A stretch of 64,000 nt of DNA, taken from positions 186,001 to 250,000 of the forward strand of contig DULG01000019.1 in NCBI GenBank assembly GCA_012840485.1, in the 5' to 3' direction. The translations under genes and the position numbers were made by a program. The notes below the pieces were generated by a model. It did no database searches. It worked only from the letters and a program-made list of their open reading frames with translations, and was not told the DNA's origin. Source of the DNA: Clostridia bacterium (GTDB taxonomy: Bacteria > Bacillota > Thermoanaerobacteria > Thermoanaerobacterales > Thermoanaerobacteraceae). Of the stretch, positions 8,852 to 41,097 are shown piece after piece (positions within the stretch are counted from its first letter, which is position 1; each line of letters starts with the position of its first letter).

Positions 8852-9307
8852 TCACTTGACCAGCTTTTTAAACTTTTCTAGCAGTTCTTGAAGTGCTTCT
8901 TCATTTCTTACTAAGACGAAAATAGTATTATCTCCTGCTAAAGTGCCCACTATGTCTTTCCAATTTAATGTATCAATAGCTTCTGCAGCTGCTGGTGCTG
9001 TGCCTGATAACGTTTTTACAACTATAATATTTCCTGCATAATCAACACTCACTATAGATTCAGACAATAGGGTCATCAGTCTGTCAGTAATATGACTATC
9101 CACTTTTCCCATAGGAGCATATTTGTACCTTTTTCCGTCCTCAGTTAAAACCTTTATGAGCCTCAATTCCTTTATATCTCTGGAAACTGTAGCTTGGGTA
9201 ACGTCAATACCTTGTTTTTGAAGTTCGGCTGCTAGCTCTTCTTGTGTTTCAATTTCTTTTTCGGAAATTATTTCTAAAATTTTCGCATGTCGTGCTATTT
9301 TCATCAT
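8852..9307 (-). CDS. argR: Arginine repressor ArgR/AhrC
   Basis: [12 protein letters not shown] wHTH and C-terminal [11 protein letters not shown]. Confidence 0.95.
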
Positions 9308-11028: not shown

Positions 11029-12891
11029 TTACCTCATTTCCTTATATTTTTGTAGTATAGTACTTGCGATAGACTCAGCATCTAAATTGTATTTTTTAAA
11101 CAAGTTTTCTACATCTCCATGTTCTATAAACTTATCAGGAAATCCTAAGCATAAAACTGGTTTGTAAATTCCTTTCGAATTTAAAAGCTCTAATATAGCA
11201 CTTCCAATTCCACCAGCTATGACATTATCTTCTACTGTAACAATAAATTTGACTTTGTTTGAGATATCTAAAATCAGATCTTCATCTAAAGGTTTGACAA
11301 ATCTCAAATTGACAATAAATGGTTGTAAATCAGAAGCTTTTAAAATCTCTTTTGCTTCTAACACCTTTCCTACCATTCTTCCTAATGCAAAAATTGCTAT
11401 TTCTTCTCCCTCAGATACTAACTCTGCTTTTCCAAACTCTATACTGCATTCTCTTGTAATATCGAATTCTCCTGCTTTTCCCCTTGGATACCTTATGGCA
11501 ACAGGAAAGTCAAGATTTCTTGATAATTTAACCATTTCAACTAATTCATTTGCATCTTTTGGAGACATAATCGCTATATTAGGAATTGGCCTTAAATAAG
11601 ATAGATCAAAAACTCCTTGATGGGTTTCTCCATCCTCTCCTACAATTCCTGCTCTATCAATTGCAAAAACAACAGGTAATTTTTGTATACATACATCGTG
11701 TATAAGCTGGTCATAAGCTCTTTGTAAAAAGGTAGAATACACTGCAAAATAAGGTTTATATCCTTGTACTGCCATTCCTGCTGCAAAGGTAGTAGCATGC
11801 TGCTCTGCTATTCCTACATCAAAAAATCTTTCAGGAATCAATTTTGCAAAATGAATAAGCCCTGTTCCCTCTGGCATGGCAGCAGTTATTGCAACAATTT
11901 TGTCATCTTTTAATGCCATTTCAGTAAGAGTCTTTCCAAATACATCAGAATAAGTCGCCTGCCCCTCATTTACAAACTTACCTGTTTGTATGTCAAAAGG
12001 AGCTGCAGAATGAAATTTATCAGGAAATTTTTCTGCAAATTTATAGCCTTTGCCTTTTTTTGTGATAACATGTACTAAAATAGGTCCTTTTATTTTCTTT
12101 GCTCTTTCTAAAACCTCTATAAGGCTATCAACGTCATGTCCGTCAATAGGTCCTAAATATGTAAAGCCCATCTCTTCAAAAAACATTCCTGGCACTACTA
12201 ACTGTTTTACAGAATCCTTAATTCTTTCAATGTATTTATGAAGGCTTTTTCCTATTGGAGGTACAATATTGAGTAAATTATCAACCTCTTGTTTTAATTT
12301 GTTGTAAGTAGGGTCAGTTCTAAGTTTACTTAAATACAAAGATAAACTACCTACGTTTTCTGAAATAGACATCTCATTGTGATTTAGCACGACAATCAAA
12401 TCTGTTTTAGACCTTCCTGCATTATTTAATGCTTCAAAAGCCATGCCACCTGTCAAAGCTCCATCACCGATTACCGCTACAACAGAATATTTCTCGCCCT
12501 TTAAATCTCTTGCCTTGGCAATACCCAATGCTGCAGATATAGAGGTGCTACTGTGACCTGCTCCAAATATATCATGCACACTTTCCGTTCTTTTAGTATA
12601 ACCAGAAAGGCCATTGAATTTCCTTAAAGTATCAAACTGGTCTTTCCTACCTGTAAGCATTTTATGTACATAACACTGATGCCCTACATCCCAGATTATT
12701 TTGTCAACTGGCGAATTAAAAACATAGTGAAGTGCAACTGTAAGTTCAACAATTCCAAGGTTTGAAGCTAAATGACCACCTGTTTTAGACACCTTTTCTA
12801 TTAAAAACTGGCGTATTTCTTCGCAAAGCAGTGGAAAGTCCTTTTTGTCTAATTTTCTTAAATCATAAGGGCTATCAATTTGCTCAAGCAT
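11029..12891 (-). CDS. dxs: 1-deoxy-D-xylulose-5-phosphate synthase
   Basis: Full-length similarity: GHQCYVHKMLTGR, GDGALTGGMAFEALNNAG, GEDGETHQG. Confidence 0.98.
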   Translation of the reverse strand: MLEQIDSPYDLRKLDKKDFPLLCEEIRQFLIEKVSKTGGHLASNLGIVELTVALHYVFNSPVDKIIWDVGHQCYVHKMLTGRKDQFDTLRKFNGLSGYTKRTESVHDIFGAGHSSTSISAALGIAKARDLKGEKYSVVAVIGDGALTGGMAFEALNNAGRSKTDLIVVLNHNEMSISENVGSLSLYLSKLRTDPTYNKLKQEVDNLLNIVPPIGKSLHKYIERIKDSVKQLVVPGMFFEEMGFTYLGPIDGHDVDSLIEVLERAKKIKGPILVHVITKKGKGYKFAEKFPDKFHSAAPFDIQTGKFVNEGQATYSDVFGKTLTEMALKDDKIVAITAAMPEGTGLIHFAKLIPERFFDVGIAEQHATTFAAGMAVQGYKPYFAVYSTFLQRAYDQLIHDVCIQKLPVVFAIDRAGIVGEDGETHQGVFDLSYLRPIPNIAIMSPKDANELVEMVKLSRNLDFPVAIRYPRGKAGEFDITRECSIEFGKAELVSEGEEIAIFALGRMVGKVLEAKEILKASDLQPFIVNLRFVKPLDEDLILDISNKVKFIVTVEDNVIAGGIGSAILELLNSKGIYKPVLCLGFPDKFIEHGDVENLFKKYNLDAESIASTILQKYKEMR

Positions 12892-12900
12892 TTAAAACCC

Positions 12901-13488
12901 TCACTTTCTTTTTTCTCTTTTATTATTTTTATAATCGGGCAAAATCTTTATACCCATGTTTTTTTCTATCCAAGCAAGAATTACAGCAACTGTATAAACA
13001 ATAGACTGGCTTTTAGCTATACCTATATTTTTACCAATAGCTTTTCCTCCAATTGTAATGGCAGATAATAAACCTCCTAAAATCGCAGTATAAAGAGAAC
13101 CTTTGGGCCCCTCAAAAGCTAATTTTACAATTATTGCCATCAGAGCAGCACCAGAAACAATTCCAGAAATATCTCCTACTACGTCATTGCAAAAATTAGC
13201 CACAATATTAGCATTTCTAAGAAGTTTTATGGCTTCCTTTGCTCCAAATACTTTTTTAGCCGCCATTGCATGAAAAGGTTCTTCTCTGCCTGAAATTACT
13301 GCTGTACCTATTATATCAAAAATTATACCAATTAACACTATAAAACCAAGAATACAAAAGGCTACAAGGAGATTGCTCTCTTTTAATGCAACATCAGAAA
13401 AAAAATTTAATATAGTGGCAAGAAAAAAGGTTATAATAGTTATATGTAAAATCCACTTATAATTCGTATTTATGTTTTTATTTTTCAT
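12901..13488 (-). CDS. oapA: OLE-associated protein A-like membrane protein (OapA)
   Basis: 195-aa multi-TM protein with NDVVGD (DxxxD) segment, directly 3' of the OLE RNA and upstream of dxs; ATG at 13488 with AGGAGGT upstream. The ORF-track start at 13584 lies inside the RNA and is rejected. Confidence 0.85.
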   Translation of the reverse strand: MKNKNINTNYKWILHITIITFFLATILNFFSDVALKESNLLVAFCILGFIVLIGIIFDIIGTAVISGREEPFHAMAAKKVFGAKEAIKLLRNANIVANFCNDVVGDISGIVSGAALMAIIVKLAFEGPKGSLYTAILGGLLSAITIGGKAIGKNIGIAKSQSIVYTVAVILAWIEKNMGIKILPDYKNNKREKRK

Positions 13489-13510
13489 AATAAAAAAAAG
13501 ACCTCCTACA

Positions 13511-14115
13511 TGTATAAAGGCAAAGTGGTAGCATATTGGGTAAACTTTGCGGCTTAGGTCCAGTAGGATTTCCCAAGCGGGCACTGAACGTCGCCGTTCA
13601 GCGGTTCCCCTTTAAGCCCGCTTTTACCTTGTCACCAAAGGTAAGACTGGACTACCACTTAGTCCGCACCGTAATCCCCAATATGCCGCCCGACAAGGCG
13701 CAGCCTAGGAGTTTTCCTCAACAGAGGAACCAACCCCTATCCTCTTTTGCAATTCGGGTTTCATCAGCAATAGCCAGTAATTCAAGAGCTCTTTGAATTA
13801 TGGCTTACAACTGATATCCACCCGAATCACTCAAGGCAGGCTACACTGTCCGCAGCTTTATGGCCGCGAGACAGGTTCATCCTACCCCGTAGCCCGTAAA
13901 AGCCACGCAAGTAGGTCTCCGCGGAGGAAGGGTCAACGCCCACATGCCATTGTGGATCGCCCCCCCTCCTTAACTCCCAGCACCAGCCCCCAACTGGGCG
14001 TTGAAAGCCAGCACCAGGAACTTCATCGATGTGCCCTTGACGGATTTTTAGGCCCGTCTTCGGGATTAGCGCCTCTGACTAGGATACTGCACCACTTTGC
14101 CTTTCTTTTCAAGGT
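13511..14115 (-). ncRNA. ole: OLE RNA (ornate, large, extremophilic)
   Basis: About 600 nt GC-rich non-coding block in an AT-rich region; lies between ispA and oapA/dxs as in known OLE loci; 13-bp terminal pairing AAAGGCAAAGTGG (5') with CCACTTTGCCTTT (3') at 14092-14104/13516-13528; promoter just upstream. Exact ends approximate. Confidence 0.88.
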
Positions 14116-14121
14116 ATATTA

Positions 14122-14151
14122 ATTATAACATAATAAAAATGACAATATCAA
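14122..14151 (-). promoter_or_regulatory. Sigma-A-like promoter for OLE RNA
   Basis: -35 TTGATA (14151-14146), 18-nt spacer, -10 TATAAT (14127-14122) on minus strand. Confidence 0.7.
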
Positions 14152-14243: not shown

Positions 14244-15128
14244 TTAGTTTACTCTTTCAATCAAATAATTGGAAAGCTCTTTTAAAAACTCTGCTTTTTC
14301 TCCAAACCTATCTAAAATCTTTACAGCATTCTGTGTAAGCTCTACAACCATCTCATGAGATTTTTCTAATCCAAAAATATTGACAAAAGTAAACTTGCCT
14401 TTTTCTTTATCACTACCTACTTTTTTACCCAATTTTTCCTCTTCTCCTATTACATCCAATATATCATCTTTTATTTGAAAAGCAAAACCTATTAAGCGTG
14501 CATATTCCCTTAAGGCATGAATCTCTTCTTCTGTAGCACCAGCGATGTAAGCTCCTGCACAAACAGACGCTTCTATCAAAGCTCCTGTCTTGTGTTCATG
14601 CATAAATTTTAATTCTTCATAAGTAAGCTCCGTGTTTTGTGAAAGTATATCTACCACTTGCCCACCAATAATTCCTTTACATCCTGAGGCTGTCGCAATT
14701 TCATTGGTAGCTTTCAATATTCCTTCATAATCTTCCGGATGTTCTAAAGCATGTCTTACTAACACTTCATACCCTAAATTTAAAAGTCCATCACCAGCTA
14801 AAATTGCTATAGCTTCCCCATAAACTTTGTGATTCGTGGGCTTTCCTCTTCTTAAATCATCATTATCCATGGCTGGAAGGTCATCGTGAATCAGAGAATA
14901 AGTATGAATAAGTTCAATCGCACAAGCTACAGGAAGAGCTTTTTTTATATCTCCTCCTAAAAGCTCACAAGAAGAAAGGCATAAAACTGGTCTTAACCTT
15001 TTCCCTCCAGCAAATACACTGTAATTCATTGCTTCATAAATTATCTCTGGTTTTTCTTCTATATCAAGTATTCTGTGTAGTTCTTTCTCAACAAGCTGTT
15101 GTTTTTCTCTTAACTTTTCTTTAAACAT
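14244..15128 (-). CDS. ispA: Polyprenyl (farnesyl/geranyl) diphosphate synthase
   Basis: DDLPAMDND and DDILD motifs; start moved to MFKEK with GAGGAAAAGG upstream. Confidence 0.95.
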
Positions 15129-15354
15129 CCTTTTCCTCCTCTTTAAAATCAATTTCTTCATTTTCGTTGATGAGAAGGGTTATCTTTCCTTCAACCTCAC
15201 TTAACCTTTTTTCTAATCTTTTAGAAATTTCAACTCCTTCTTTAAATAAATTAAAAGACTCTTCCAGCATTAAATTTCCTTTTTCTAATATATTCACAAT
15301 TTCTTCTAATCTCATCATTTCTTTTTCAAAGGACAATTCTTCATTCATCTTCAT
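15121..15354 (-). CDS. xseB: Exodeoxyribonuclease VII small subunit
   Basis: [32 protein letters not shown]; next to xseA. Confidence 0.93.
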
Positions 15355-36908: not shown

Positions 36909-37958
36909 CTATATCATTCGGGAAAAACTCTCTTGGTCTACACAATAAGTAAGCGCATCCTCTAAAGAAATAATTTCTGCTTTTAAAAGCTGCAAAATAG
37001 ACATATCCATTGTCATCATTCCAAACTTGCTACCTGTTTGAACTGCCGACTGTATCTGGAAAGTCTTCCCTTCTCTTATGAGATTTCTTATAGCAGGAGT
37101 AGCAATCATCACTTCTGTCGCAACTACTCTGCCGCTGTTGTCCTTTTTAGGTATAAGCTGTTGAGAAATAATTCCCTCTAAAACATTGGATAATTGAACT
37201 TTTATCTGCTGTTGTTGATGGGGAGGAAAAACATCAATAATCCTATCGATCGTCTTAACGGCTCCTATTGTGTGAAGAGTGGACAAAACAAGATGTCCTG
37301 TCTCAGCTGCAGTTATGGCAATTTGGATTGTCTCTAAATCCCTCATTTCTCCTACCAGTATCACATCCGGATCTTCCCTTAAAGCAGCTCTTAAAGCAGA
37401 GGCATAAGACACCGCATCATGTCCAATTTCCCTTTGATTCACAATGCTTTTATTGTGCTTGTGCAAATACTCTATAGGGTCCTCCAATGTGAGAATGTGA
37501 CAAGTCCTTTTAGAATTTATCCAGTCCACCATTGCCGCCAGTGTAGTAGATTTGCCACTGCCAGTAGGCCCTGTTACTAGTATAAGCCCTCTTGTCTTTA
37601 AAGCTAAATCTTTTATTATCGGAGGAAGGCCTAACTCCTCTATTGTAGGTATTCTCAAAGCTACAGACCTTATTGCAAGGCTATAACTTCCCCTCTGTTT
37701 ATATACATTTATTCTAAACCTTCCTAACCCTGTAACTGAATAGGACAAGTCAATATCTCCATTTTGTTCTAACTTTTTCAACTGTTCGCTTGTCAATAAA
37801 TCCTTAACTATCTCTTCAATCTGCCCAGGAGTAAAAGGTTCTCCTTCTAATTTTTCTAAATAGCCATTAATTCTGAAAACTGGAGGTACTCCAACTGTTA
37901 TGTGCAAATCTGAAGCTTTTTTTTCAACTACTAATTTTAAAAGTTCCCTTGTATTCAT
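36909..37958 (-). CDS. pilT: Type IV pilus retraction ATPase PilT
   Basis: GPTGSGKSTTLAAMVDWIN, GEMRDLETIQIAITAAETGHLVLSTLHT. Confidence 0.95.
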   Translation of the reverse strand: MNTRELLKLVVEKKASDLHITVGVPPVFRINGYLEKLEGEPFTPGQIEEIVKDLLTSEQLKKLEQNGDIDLSYSVTGLGRFRINVYKQRGSYSLAIRSVALRIPTIEELGLPPIIKDLALKTRGLILVTGPTGSGKSTTLAAMVDWINSKRTCHILTLEDPIEYLHKHNKSIVNQREIGHDAVSYASALRAALREDPDVILVGEMRDLETIQIAITAAETGHLVLSTLHTIGAVKTIDRIIDVFPPHQQQQIKVQLSNVLEGIISQQLIPKKDNSGRVVATEVMIATPAIRNLIREGKTFQIQSAVQTGSKFGMMTMDMSILQLLKAEIISLEDALTYCVDQESFSRMI

Positions 37959-37963
37959 ATCCC

Positions 37964-39640
37964 TCATTCCTCGTAAGTTAATCTTAGCATTTCTTCAACT
38001 GTAGTTTTACCCTGCAAAATAAGCCTTTTGGCGCTTTCTCTCAAGGTCTTCATGCCATTTTTTACAGCCTGCGTTTCAATGACATCAGAAGAAACTTTTG
38101 CATTTATAAGCTCCCTAATATCAGAAATAATTGTCATCATCTCATATATAGGAATTCTACCTCTATAACCTGTTTTATTGCAAACAGGACATCCTTTTCC
38201 CTTGTATAAAGTTATATCCTCATCTTCAGAGATGCCTAAAATCTCTTTTTCCTCTTTAGAAGCCTTATAGGAGATTTTGCAATTATCACATATTTTCCTC
38301 GCCAGTCTCTGGGCAATAACCCCTACTACAGAAGAAGCCACAAGATAAGGCTCTATGCCCATATCTATAAGTCTCGTCACAGCTCCTGCAGCATCATTTG
38401 TATGTAAAGTAGATAACACCAAATGACCTGTTATAGCTGACCGGATAGCAATTTCCGCAGTTTCAGTATCTCTAATTTCTCCAATCATTATTATATCCGG
38501 GTCCTGCCTTAAAATTGACCTTAAAGCAGCTGCAAAAGTAAGCCCCGCCTTTTCATTGACTTGTACCTGATTTATACCTTCCAGCGAATACTCAACAGGG
38601 TCTTCAACAGTTATTATATTGACATTTGGCTTATTAAGCTCTTTTAACATTGCATAAAGAGTAGTTGTCTTTCCACTGCCTGTTGGACCTGTCAAAAGCA
38701 CAATGCCATTAGGCCTTTTTATGAGTTTATCAAAAAGCACCAAGTCTTCTTCCTCAAAACCCAATTGATCCTTTGTCATTATAAAATTTTCTTTGTCCAA
38801 AAGCCTTAACACCAATTTTTCTCCAAAGACTGTAGGCAAAGAAGAAACCCTTACATCGATGTTTTTACCACCTGAAGTAAAATCAAATCTCCCATCCTGG
38901 GGAAGCCTTCTTTCTGCAATGTTCATGTTTGCCATGATTTTTACTCTTGTCACAACAGGGGCATGGGTACTCTTTATGGTCCTCATGGCTTCTGTCAGCT
39001 GCCCATCTATTCTAAATCGAATTCTCAAGTCTTTTTCTGTAGGTTCAATGTGAATGTCAGAAGCTCTATTTTTTATCGCCTGTTCAATTATAGAATTTAC
39101 AAACCGCACAGCGGGAGCATTTTGCACTTCTTCCAAAATTTCATTTGGTATTTCTTGCTGGACTTCACTTTGAAACTCTCTTTTAAAGTCCTGCACTGCT
39201 TTTTCTGCCTGTTCTCTTCCGTAAATTCTGTCTATAGCTTTCAAAATGCTACTTTCAGATGCAATTAAAGGCTTCACATTTTGTTTAGTAATGATTCTCA
39301 CATCATCCAGAGCAAATATATTTAGGGGATCTGCCATTGCTACAAGAATACCATCTTCATCTTTTTTAATAGGAATGATAGTATACCTTTTAGCAACAGA
39401 TTCAGGAATTAACTTTGCTACTTCAGGGTCAATATAGTACTTCTGCAAATCCACATGGGGAATACCTAGTTGAAATTCTAAAACCTCAAGAATTTGATTC
39501 TCTGTAACATAACCCAATTTAGTAAGAATTTTACCTAACTTTTCCCCTGTTTTATTGTGAATCTCTATTGCTTGCTTTAGTTGTTCTTCTGTTATGATAC
39601 CAACTTCAAGTAAAAGTTCCCCTAACTTTTTTTTGGCCAT
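37964..39640 (-). CDS. pilB: Type IV pilus extension ATPase PilB/GspE
   Basis: GPTGSGKTTTLYAML, GEIRDTETAEIAIRSAITGHLVLSTLHTND, C-x2-C zinc site. Confidence 0.95.
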   Translation of the reverse strand: MAKKKLGELLLEVGIITEEQLKQAIEIHNKTGEKLGKILTKLGYVTENQILEVLEFQLGIPHVDLQKYYIDPEVAKLIPESVAKRYTIIPIKKDEDGILVAMADPLNIFALDDVRIITKQNVKPLIASESSILKAIDRIYGREQAEKAVQDFKREFQSEVQQEIPNEILEEVQNAPAVRFVNSIIEQAIKNRASDIHIEPTEKDLRIRFRIDGQLTEAMRTIKSTHAPVVTRVKIMANMNIAERRLPQDGRFDFTSGGKNIDVRVSSLPTVFGEKLVLRLLDKENFIMTKDQLGFEEEDLVLFDKLIKRPNGIVLLTGPTGSGKTTTLYAMLKELNKPNVNIITVEDPVEYSLEGINQVQVNEKAGLTFAAALRSILRQDPDIIMIGEIRDTETAEIAIRSAITGHLVLSTLHTNDAAGAVTRLIDMGIEPYLVASSVVGVIAQRLARKICDNCKISYKASKEEKEILGISEDEDITLYKGKGCPVCNKTGYRGRIPIYEMMTIISDIRELINAKVSSDVIETQAVKNGMKTLRESAKRLILQGKTTVEEMLRLTYEE

Positions 39641-39665: not shown

Positions 39666-39727
39666 CCGACATAAAGCCGGTTGCACCACTGTATCCATGA
39701 GGCATAAAGTGCCCAGATATAGCCTCA
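39666..39727 (-). promoter_or_regulatory. Candidate structured leader upstream of pilB
   Basis: Minus-strand helices TGAGGC/GCCTCA (18-nt loop) and CCGGC-TTTAT-GTCGG followed by CTTTATTATTTTT then the pilB RBS. Confidence 0.45.
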
Positions 39728-39752
39728 CTTCATCTACTCTTTATAAAATATT

Positions 39753-40607
39753 CTACAAATTTTGCGTAATTCCTTCTTTTAAATGCATGTAGACCAAATT
39801 TTTGTCGAAAAATCCCCCTGTCCACAACTTGAAAGAATAATTAGCTTGATTAAGTAGCATAGAAAGTCCATTAGAATACTTTATTCCATTCTTTTTCGCA
39901 TGTTTTAAAAGAGCAGTTTCAAAAGGGTTGTAAATAAGGTCATATACAAATTTAGCCCTTGAAACCACACCTTCACTAGCAGGTGAATCCTCCACATTTG
40001 GATGCATTCCAACACTTGTAGTATTAATTAGCATATCTATTTCTTGTATTTTTTCTACTTCATTTATACTGCAATAATCACAATGAACCTCAAATTCTTT
40101 TTCAACATACTCCGACAAATTTTTTGCTCTTTCAACACTTCTATTGGCAATTACCATGGAATCTATTCCTTCTGAAGCAAGAGCCACACAAATTGCCTTA
40201 GAAGCTCCGCCAGCTCCTAAAACAACAGCTTTTCTTCCTTTTATCTCTTCTCCTAATTCTTTTAAAGAATCTATAAAACCATACACATCCGTATTATAAC
40301 CTTCTAAAACTCCCTCTTCATTTATTACAGTGTTGACTGCTCCAATCTTTAAAGCCTCTTCTGATACAACATCTAAATACTTGATGATATTTTCTTTATG
40401 AGGAACAGTGACATTAAAACCCTTTATCCCTAAAGCCTTAACTCCTTTTACTGCGTCTTCTAATTTTTCAGTCAAAACATCAAAAACAGTATATACGCAG
40501 TTTAAGCCTAACGATTTAAAAGCATAATTATGTATCAAAGGAGATAAACTATGCCCTATTGGATGACCTATGAGCCCATACAATTTGGTTTTAGAATCAA
40601 TTTTCAT
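39753..40607 (-). CDS. aroE: Shikimate dehydrogenase
   Basis: GLIGHPIGHSLSPLIHN, NVTVPHKE, GAGGASKAI. Confidence 0.96.
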   Translation of the reverse strand: MKIDSKTKLYGLIGHPIGHSLSPLIHNYAFKSLGLNCVYTVFDVLTEKLEDAVKGVKALGIKGFNVTVPHKENIIKYLDVVSEEALKIGAVNTVINEEGVLEGYNTDVYGFIDSLKELGEEIKGRKAVVLGAGGASKAICVALASEGIDSMVIANRSVERAKNLSEYVEKEFEVHCDYCSINEVEKIQEIDMLINTTSVGMHPNVEDSPASEGVVSRAKFVYDLIYNPFETALLKHAKKNGIKYSNGLSMLLNQANYSFKLWTGGFFDKNLVYMHLKEGITQNL

Positions 40608-41097
40608 ATCTCTCAATCCTTTTTAACACATGTCTTTCTGCTTTTCTCATAAGTTTTGTCCAACCTAATTCCTCTTTTGACAAGGGTTTTACCAAAATAG
40701 TGTACAAACCTGCCCTTTTGCCCCCCAAAATATCTGTAAATATTTGGTCTCCTATTAAGGCTGTTTCATGGGGCTTTGCATCTAAAATCTTTAAAGCCTT
40801 TTTAAAAGCTCCTTTTCTCGGTTTAATAGCCCAAGCTATTCCTGGTACATCTATTTTTTCTCTAAATTCATTTACTCTTTTTTTGGTATTATTTGAAACA
40901 AGACAAACTCCAAACCCTTCTTTCTTTACCTTTTCCAGCCACTCAATAGTAGTTTTATCAGGAATTTTTGATTCTTTAGGAACTAAAGTATTATCAATAT
41001 CTAAAACAAGATTAGAAATCCCTTTTTCTTTTAACAAATTTAAATCAATTTTATGGATGCTTTCTACAATCATATCAGGAATTAGCTTTTTATACAT
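40597..41097 (-). CDS. YqeG family HAD IIIA-type phosphatase
   Basis: DIDNTLVP, GDQIFTDILGGKRAG. Confidence 0.92.
   Translation of the reverse strand: MYKKLIPDMIVESIHKIDLNLLKEKGISNLVLDIDNTLVPKESKIPDKTTIEWLEKVKKEGFGVCLVSNNTKKRVNEFREKIDVPGIAWAIKPRKGAFKKALKILDAKPHETALIGDQIFTDILGGKRAGLYTILVKPLSKEELGWTKLMRKAERHVLKRIERYEN

Follow-up and report, generated by a model that had tools for sequence, protein, structure and literature searches.

A full-length OLE RNA gene beside oapA in a Thermoanaerobacter genome

A GC-rich block of about 600 nt in the window (the whole 64,000-nucleotide stretch that was analysed) is flanked by ispA and by the gene of a small membrane protein, and had been read in an earlier note, made from the sequence alone, as an OLE RNA gene. 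The locus raises the question of whether the block is a complete member of the OLE family, and whether its RNA acts as the published membrane-anchored particle or as a leader of the gene downstream. Few conserved bacterial RNAs that lack a known chemical function are larger than OLE, and every well-anchored copy of it is therefore of use.

Identity, extent and promoter of the OLE gene

The window was scanned against Rfam with cmscan. The match to RF01071 (OLE) ran from 14111 to 13509 on the minus strand (582.9 bits, E = 2.7e-168; gathering score 50), covered the model end to end (positions 1-616 of 616) and preserved the structure in the alignment, bearing out decisively the identification made in the earlier note. 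The block itself stood; the ends first given for it (14115-13511) were replaced by those of the covariance-model match. Its description as GC-rich and non-coding also held: GC content was 52.6% for the block vs 33.7% for the window, and the block was the window's most GC-rich 603-nt stretch, about 5.5 sd over the mean. Plus-strand frames over it (13536-13796 and 13793-14122) were set aside as mechanical open frames. A genome scan returned a single OLE copy. The host was assigned to Thermoanaerobacter because its oapA was closest, among named relatives, to those of Thermoanaerobacter sp. Bu09 (97%) and T. wiegelii (95%). The features of the locus were as follows:

13509-14111, minus strand: ole, OLE RNA gene of the full-length class (RF01071), single copy
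14122-14151, minus strand: candidate sigma-70/sigma-A type ole promoter, TTGATA-18-TATAAT with TG before the -10 box
14244-15161, minus strand: ispA, farnesyl diphosphate synthase, upstream neighbour (NCBIfam NF045485, above cut-off)
13501-13507, minus strand: oapA Shine-Dalgarno AGGAGGU, read from the sequence, 8 nt past the terminal stem
12901-13488, minus strand: oapA, OLE-associated membrane protein A, 195 aa, ATG start; homologue adjoining OLE, with a weak CNNM/DUF21 match and a model closest to the archaeal CNNM protein MtCorB
11029-12891, minus strand: dxs, downstream neighbour (TIGR00204, 875 bits)
8852-9307, minus strand: argR, same cluster (Pfam PF01316 and PF02863)

The ispA/dxs-type neighbourhood described in the earlier note was thus recovered, with ispA upstream and oapA-dxs downstream. 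Unpublished data cited in the literature name ArgR as a partner of OLE (PMC12265935). OLE turned up in 56 of the 61 genomes drawn among relatives and in 222 of 300 drawn phylum-wide; all 14 control genomes lacked it. The window copy had the top score in the 300-genome draw. PMC11332333 sets the full-length class at 390 bits or more with P7 and P8 present; the window RNA scored 582.9 bits against that cut, on an Rfam model not identical to the published one, and hairpins corresponding to P7 and P8 were present in its alignment. From its sequence, 14111-13509 is a confirmed, ordinary and complete OLE RNA gene with nothing new in kind, and the earlier description of it as another instance of a known family agrees with the full-length match and the adjoining oapA.

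The promoter proposed in the earlier note (14151-14122) was present as described, with an extended -10 TG and 11 of 12 consensus matches, and its position was conserved over 89 OLE loci. In 92% of these loci a TATAAT-like box was present in the 34 nt preceding the OLE match, vs 15-35% in windows farther upstream. Promoters with 9/12 or more matches were found at 53 of 89 loci vs 6-7 of 89 in the comparison windows, which supports a dedicated, predicted OLE promoter across the family. From the position of the -10 box, the RNA could plausibly start near 14115. The OLE RNA of H. halodurans is reported to have its own promoter and also to be part of a larger operon (PMC9723947).

Elsewhere in the window, a cyclic di-GMP-II riboswitch (39666-39749, minus strand, 67.4 bits) was found directly upstream of two ATPase genes, one PilB/GspE-like (37964-39640) and one PilT-like (36909-37967), and was preceded by an aroE-like gene (39753-40616); these genes were named from their translations. 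The arrangement suggests c-di-GMP control of a putative type IV pilus operon.

Long-range helices and dimer-contact loops

The following elements of the RNA were located:

14091-14104, minus strand: terminal stem, 5' arm (probably the published P1), 14-bp pairing with 13516-13529, covarying; absent from the Rfam consensus structure
13516-13529, minus strand: terminal stem, 3' arm (probably the published P1), pairing with 14091-14104, covarying
14062-14077, minus strand: 5' side of P3 (CAGAGG, 14077-14072) and P3.1 (AAUCCC, 14067-14062), from pairing and covariation
13722-13737, minus strand: 3' side of P3 (CCUCUG, 13727-13722) and P3.1 (GGGGUU, 13737-13732)
14039-14058, minus strand: P4 hairpin with conserved A-rich loop (GACGGGCCUAAAAAUCCGUC, fitting the Rfam consensus), dimer bridge B1
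13771-13808, minus strand: P9.3 arm, loop 13794-13784 with self-complementary AGCU inside GAGCUC, corresponding to dimer bridge B3 with its symmetric kissing loop

The earlier note had reported a perfect 13-bp pairing of the two ends. Minus-strand 14104-14092 (AAAGGCAAAGUGG) was indeed perfectly complementary to 13528-13516 (CCACUUUGCCUUU), and with an extra pair (14091 with 13529) the stem is 14 bp long. The minimum-energy fold of the RNA also joined both ends (z = -9.6, 20 shuffles). The covariation comparison suggested in that note was carried out over 89 non-redundant OLE RNAs (<90% alike), in which stem arms were located by an offset-free search and permutations were given equal freedom. 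The longest Watson-Crick run between the ends averaged 8.57 vs 4.89 with ends swapped (permutation maximum 5.34, n=500); permutations ignore the kinship of the sequences, and both pair partners change many times across genera. The outcome was the same at genus level (27 genera). Because runs at the real ends exceeded all swapped-end permutations, the terminal stem is not attributable to chance. Neither end is paired in the Rfam consensus, nor is the P3 region. The published OLE model names P1 and P2 near the two ends, for which reason the stem is very probably P1. Several relatives from the window's group and some thermophile genera had the longest terminal stems (12-15 bp); in gut MAGs 5-7 bp was common.

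P3 and P3.1, of 6 + 6 bp in the window, also covaried (7.2 vs 4.7 permuted; permutation maximum 4.99, n=300; 78 sequences), and their combined length agrees with the 12 bp published for the helix that is proposed to cross the membrane (PMC12265935). Dimer-contact motifs were found for all four loops searched, namely P4 A-rich, P5.1, P6.1 and P9.3 (CUAAAAAU, GCCCAGU, CAAUGGCAUG and GAGCUC, respectively). The P4 A-rich loop is bridge B1 in cryo-EM dimers, and published P9.3 palindromes are GGCC, GAUC and AGCU (PMC12286853). By analogy, we infer that the window RNA would dimerise through these loops. The region at the P5 base, where the OapC kink-turn would lie, aligned to the Rfam consensus.

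The P9.3 region was scored with simple-pattern anchors in 79 non-redundant OLE RNAs (10 further sequences were unscorable), and was 75-91 nt long in 72 and 38-46 nt long in 7, with no intermediates. The seven short forms (at loci L022, L045, L043, L052, L105, L084 and L047) were without the self-complementary P9.3 loop; P4, P5 and P6 motifs were retained in most, L052 being without the P5 motif and L084 without the P4 motif by the patterns searched. On the OapA tree the short forms were scattered; the best tree needed seven changes, of which well-supported branches force two or more. One, from the same genus as the window (L022:1501-2070), scored 541.7 bits, was followed by a full-length oapA and was otherwise a normal OLE RNA. 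In PMC11332333, variant 1 OLE RNAs are described as having P7, P8 and P9 shortened together; the passages on OLE that were consulted do not mention P9.3 being lost by itself, though such a loss may already be known. We lean towards the reading that the P9.3 arm, with its bridge B3 kissing loop, was lost whole more than once in otherwise full-length OLE RNAs, including that of L022. If this is true, bridge B3 would be dispensable for OLE in nature, with P4 and P5/P6 contacts largely kept, and Thermoanaerobacter species with and without P9.3 would be a natural test of the purpose of the arched kissing-loop contact.

OapA linkage, partner proteins and proposed mode of action

The OLE match ends 20 nt ahead of the oapA start codon. 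A GTG-start oapA frame overlapping OLE (12901-13584) was ruled out, as the Shine-Dalgarno sequence stands ahead of the start at 13488, where the alignments also begin. Starting from OLE, an oapA homologue was directly downstream in 50 of 53 loci; starting from OapA in named genomes, OLE was directly upstream in 78 of 80. The remaining two OapA loci (L103 and L106, clostridial genomes) had OLE elsewhere in the genome (at L145 and L146). Among the three OLE loci without an intact adjoining oapA, two were in genomes with OapA elsewhere (G048, with the two genes apart at C85 and C73; G039, at C1 and C5), and the third (L051) had a broken oapA beside OLE. OapA was not found in any of five OLE-less relatives, one of which (G019) is an incomplete assembly. 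OLE and OapA were thus co-present in every intact case checked, reproducing the near-perfect co-occurrence reported in PMC11332333.

Two loci stood apart. At L051:1050-2030, a low-scoring OLE with an internal N run flanked by repeats was accompanied by a frame-broken oapA remnant before dxs; the locus was set aside as an assembly gap or a decaying system. OLE and oapA were also carried by a record titled Pseudomonas sp. ISL-84 (L113), whose OapA groups inside Bacillaceae, and the Pseudomonas label or the assembly is probably wrong.

The CNNM match of the window's OapA (18.9-20.4 bits) was below the Pfam cut-off (28.4), and a sequence search against PDB returned no match. Its structure model (mean pLDDT 77.5, moderate) had archaeal MtCorB as best fold match (probability 1.00, E = 0.02), which hints at a CNNM-like transmembrane protein.

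Genes for the other partners OapB, OapC and bS21 were all found in the genome. The gene order map-oapB-infA of other Bacillota pointed to OapB in L063:4854-5132, between map and infA; its product matched PDB 7k9b ('OLE-associated protein B', E = 7.5e-14) and was not detected by the Pfam KOW profile. OapC was assigned to a YbxF orthologue (L055; best PDB matches YbxF 4lck/3v7e; NCBIfam equivalog NF010124, above cut-off) and bS21 is encoded at L062.

OLE could in principle be a riboswitch-like 5' UTR leader acting in cis on oapA, its conservation reflecting control of that gene, as might be expected of an RNA that ends just ahead of the oapA Shine-Dalgarno and precedes oapA in nearly all OapA-first loci. 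A leader could not act, however, in the four genomes in which both are present and non-adjacent (G048, G039 and those of L103 and L106), and dimer contacts and known protein-binding sites point to a trans-acting particle (PMC12286853, PMC9723947). The reading, which needs OLE to be always in cis, was rejected on these four genomes and is very improbable; because some genomes hold OLE and oapA unlinked, the comparison argues that OLE would act in trans and is not merely an oapA leader. That the window copy is decayed and non-functional is next to inconceivable: nothing was found in favour, and against it stand the highest OLE score in the phylum draw and an intact oapA and promoter.

The end pairing, for its part, might be an intrinsic terminator or processing stem with no role in the folded particle, given an eight-T run about 16 nt past the stem and the 3'-end processing of OLE reported in PMC11332333. 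Against this, the stem encloses about 560 nt and forms no short hairpin, the T run is absent in most relatives outside the genus, and the stem covaries phylum-wide. As a terminator it was rejected, being uncalled by the terminator scan and having arms too distant for a hairpin, and an account without any particle role is unlikely. Particle and processing roles are compatible, and the stem may in addition show where the 3' end is cut.

We therefore prefer the reading in which this full-length Thermoanaerobacter OLE acts as the published membrane-anchored, dimeric RNA-protein particle, and hold it to be highly likely. Evidence at the level of sequence was obtained for the RNA, its long-range helices, promoter, neighbours, partner genes and dimer loops; later steps are carried over from Halalkalibacterium halodurans and clostridial OLE structures. 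By that analogy, OLE would be transcribed both from a promoter of its own and as read-through from the xse-ispA cluster, as in H. halodurans, and two RNAs would join via the P4, P5/P6 and P9 loops (PMC12286853). The dimer would be anchored in the membrane by CNNM-like OapA, with P3 crossing the bilayer or lying along it; OapA-dependent membrane location has been reported, and even for the OLE RNAs already studied, spanning of the membrane is a proposed model (PMC12265935). OapC binds the k-turn (PMC9723947) and bS21 is a reported OLE partner (PMC12054373). With OapB, OapC and bS21 the particle would tune secretion, the balance of metal ions, and growth when cells are stressed by cold, alcohol, Mg2+ or carbon, in line with the phenotypes published for stress, metal ions and secretion (PMC10898510). 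The interest of the locus lies in the question of the family's function and in the P9.3 comparison, the window copy adding no new kind of biology; its thermophilic host may supply particles with enough stability for work on the unresolved 3' domain.

Comparison with known systems

No paper in the literature searched named OLE RNA together with Thermoanaerobacter. The window RNA resembles the OLE family (RF01071) in its full-length match, ispA upstream and oapA-dxs downstream, conserved loops and partner proteins in the genome. It differs in the P9.3 loop, which has the rarer AGCU palindrome and not GGCC, a switch already published (PMC12286853), and in a hairpin at model positions ~199-240 (probably P7), which has a shorter loop with nine model positions missing. 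Homologues of OapA, OapB, OapC and bS21 of the H. halodurans OLE ribonucleoprotein are all encoded here, whereas the host belongs to an anaerobic thermophilic genus. With MpfA/CorC/CNNM magnesium transporters OapA weakly shares the CNNM transmembrane domain, as published (PMC11332333), but it is without CBS or CorC_HlyC domains; because one complete MpfA-type transporter is encoded separately in this genome (L060), OLE is not the sole system of the MpfA kind here.
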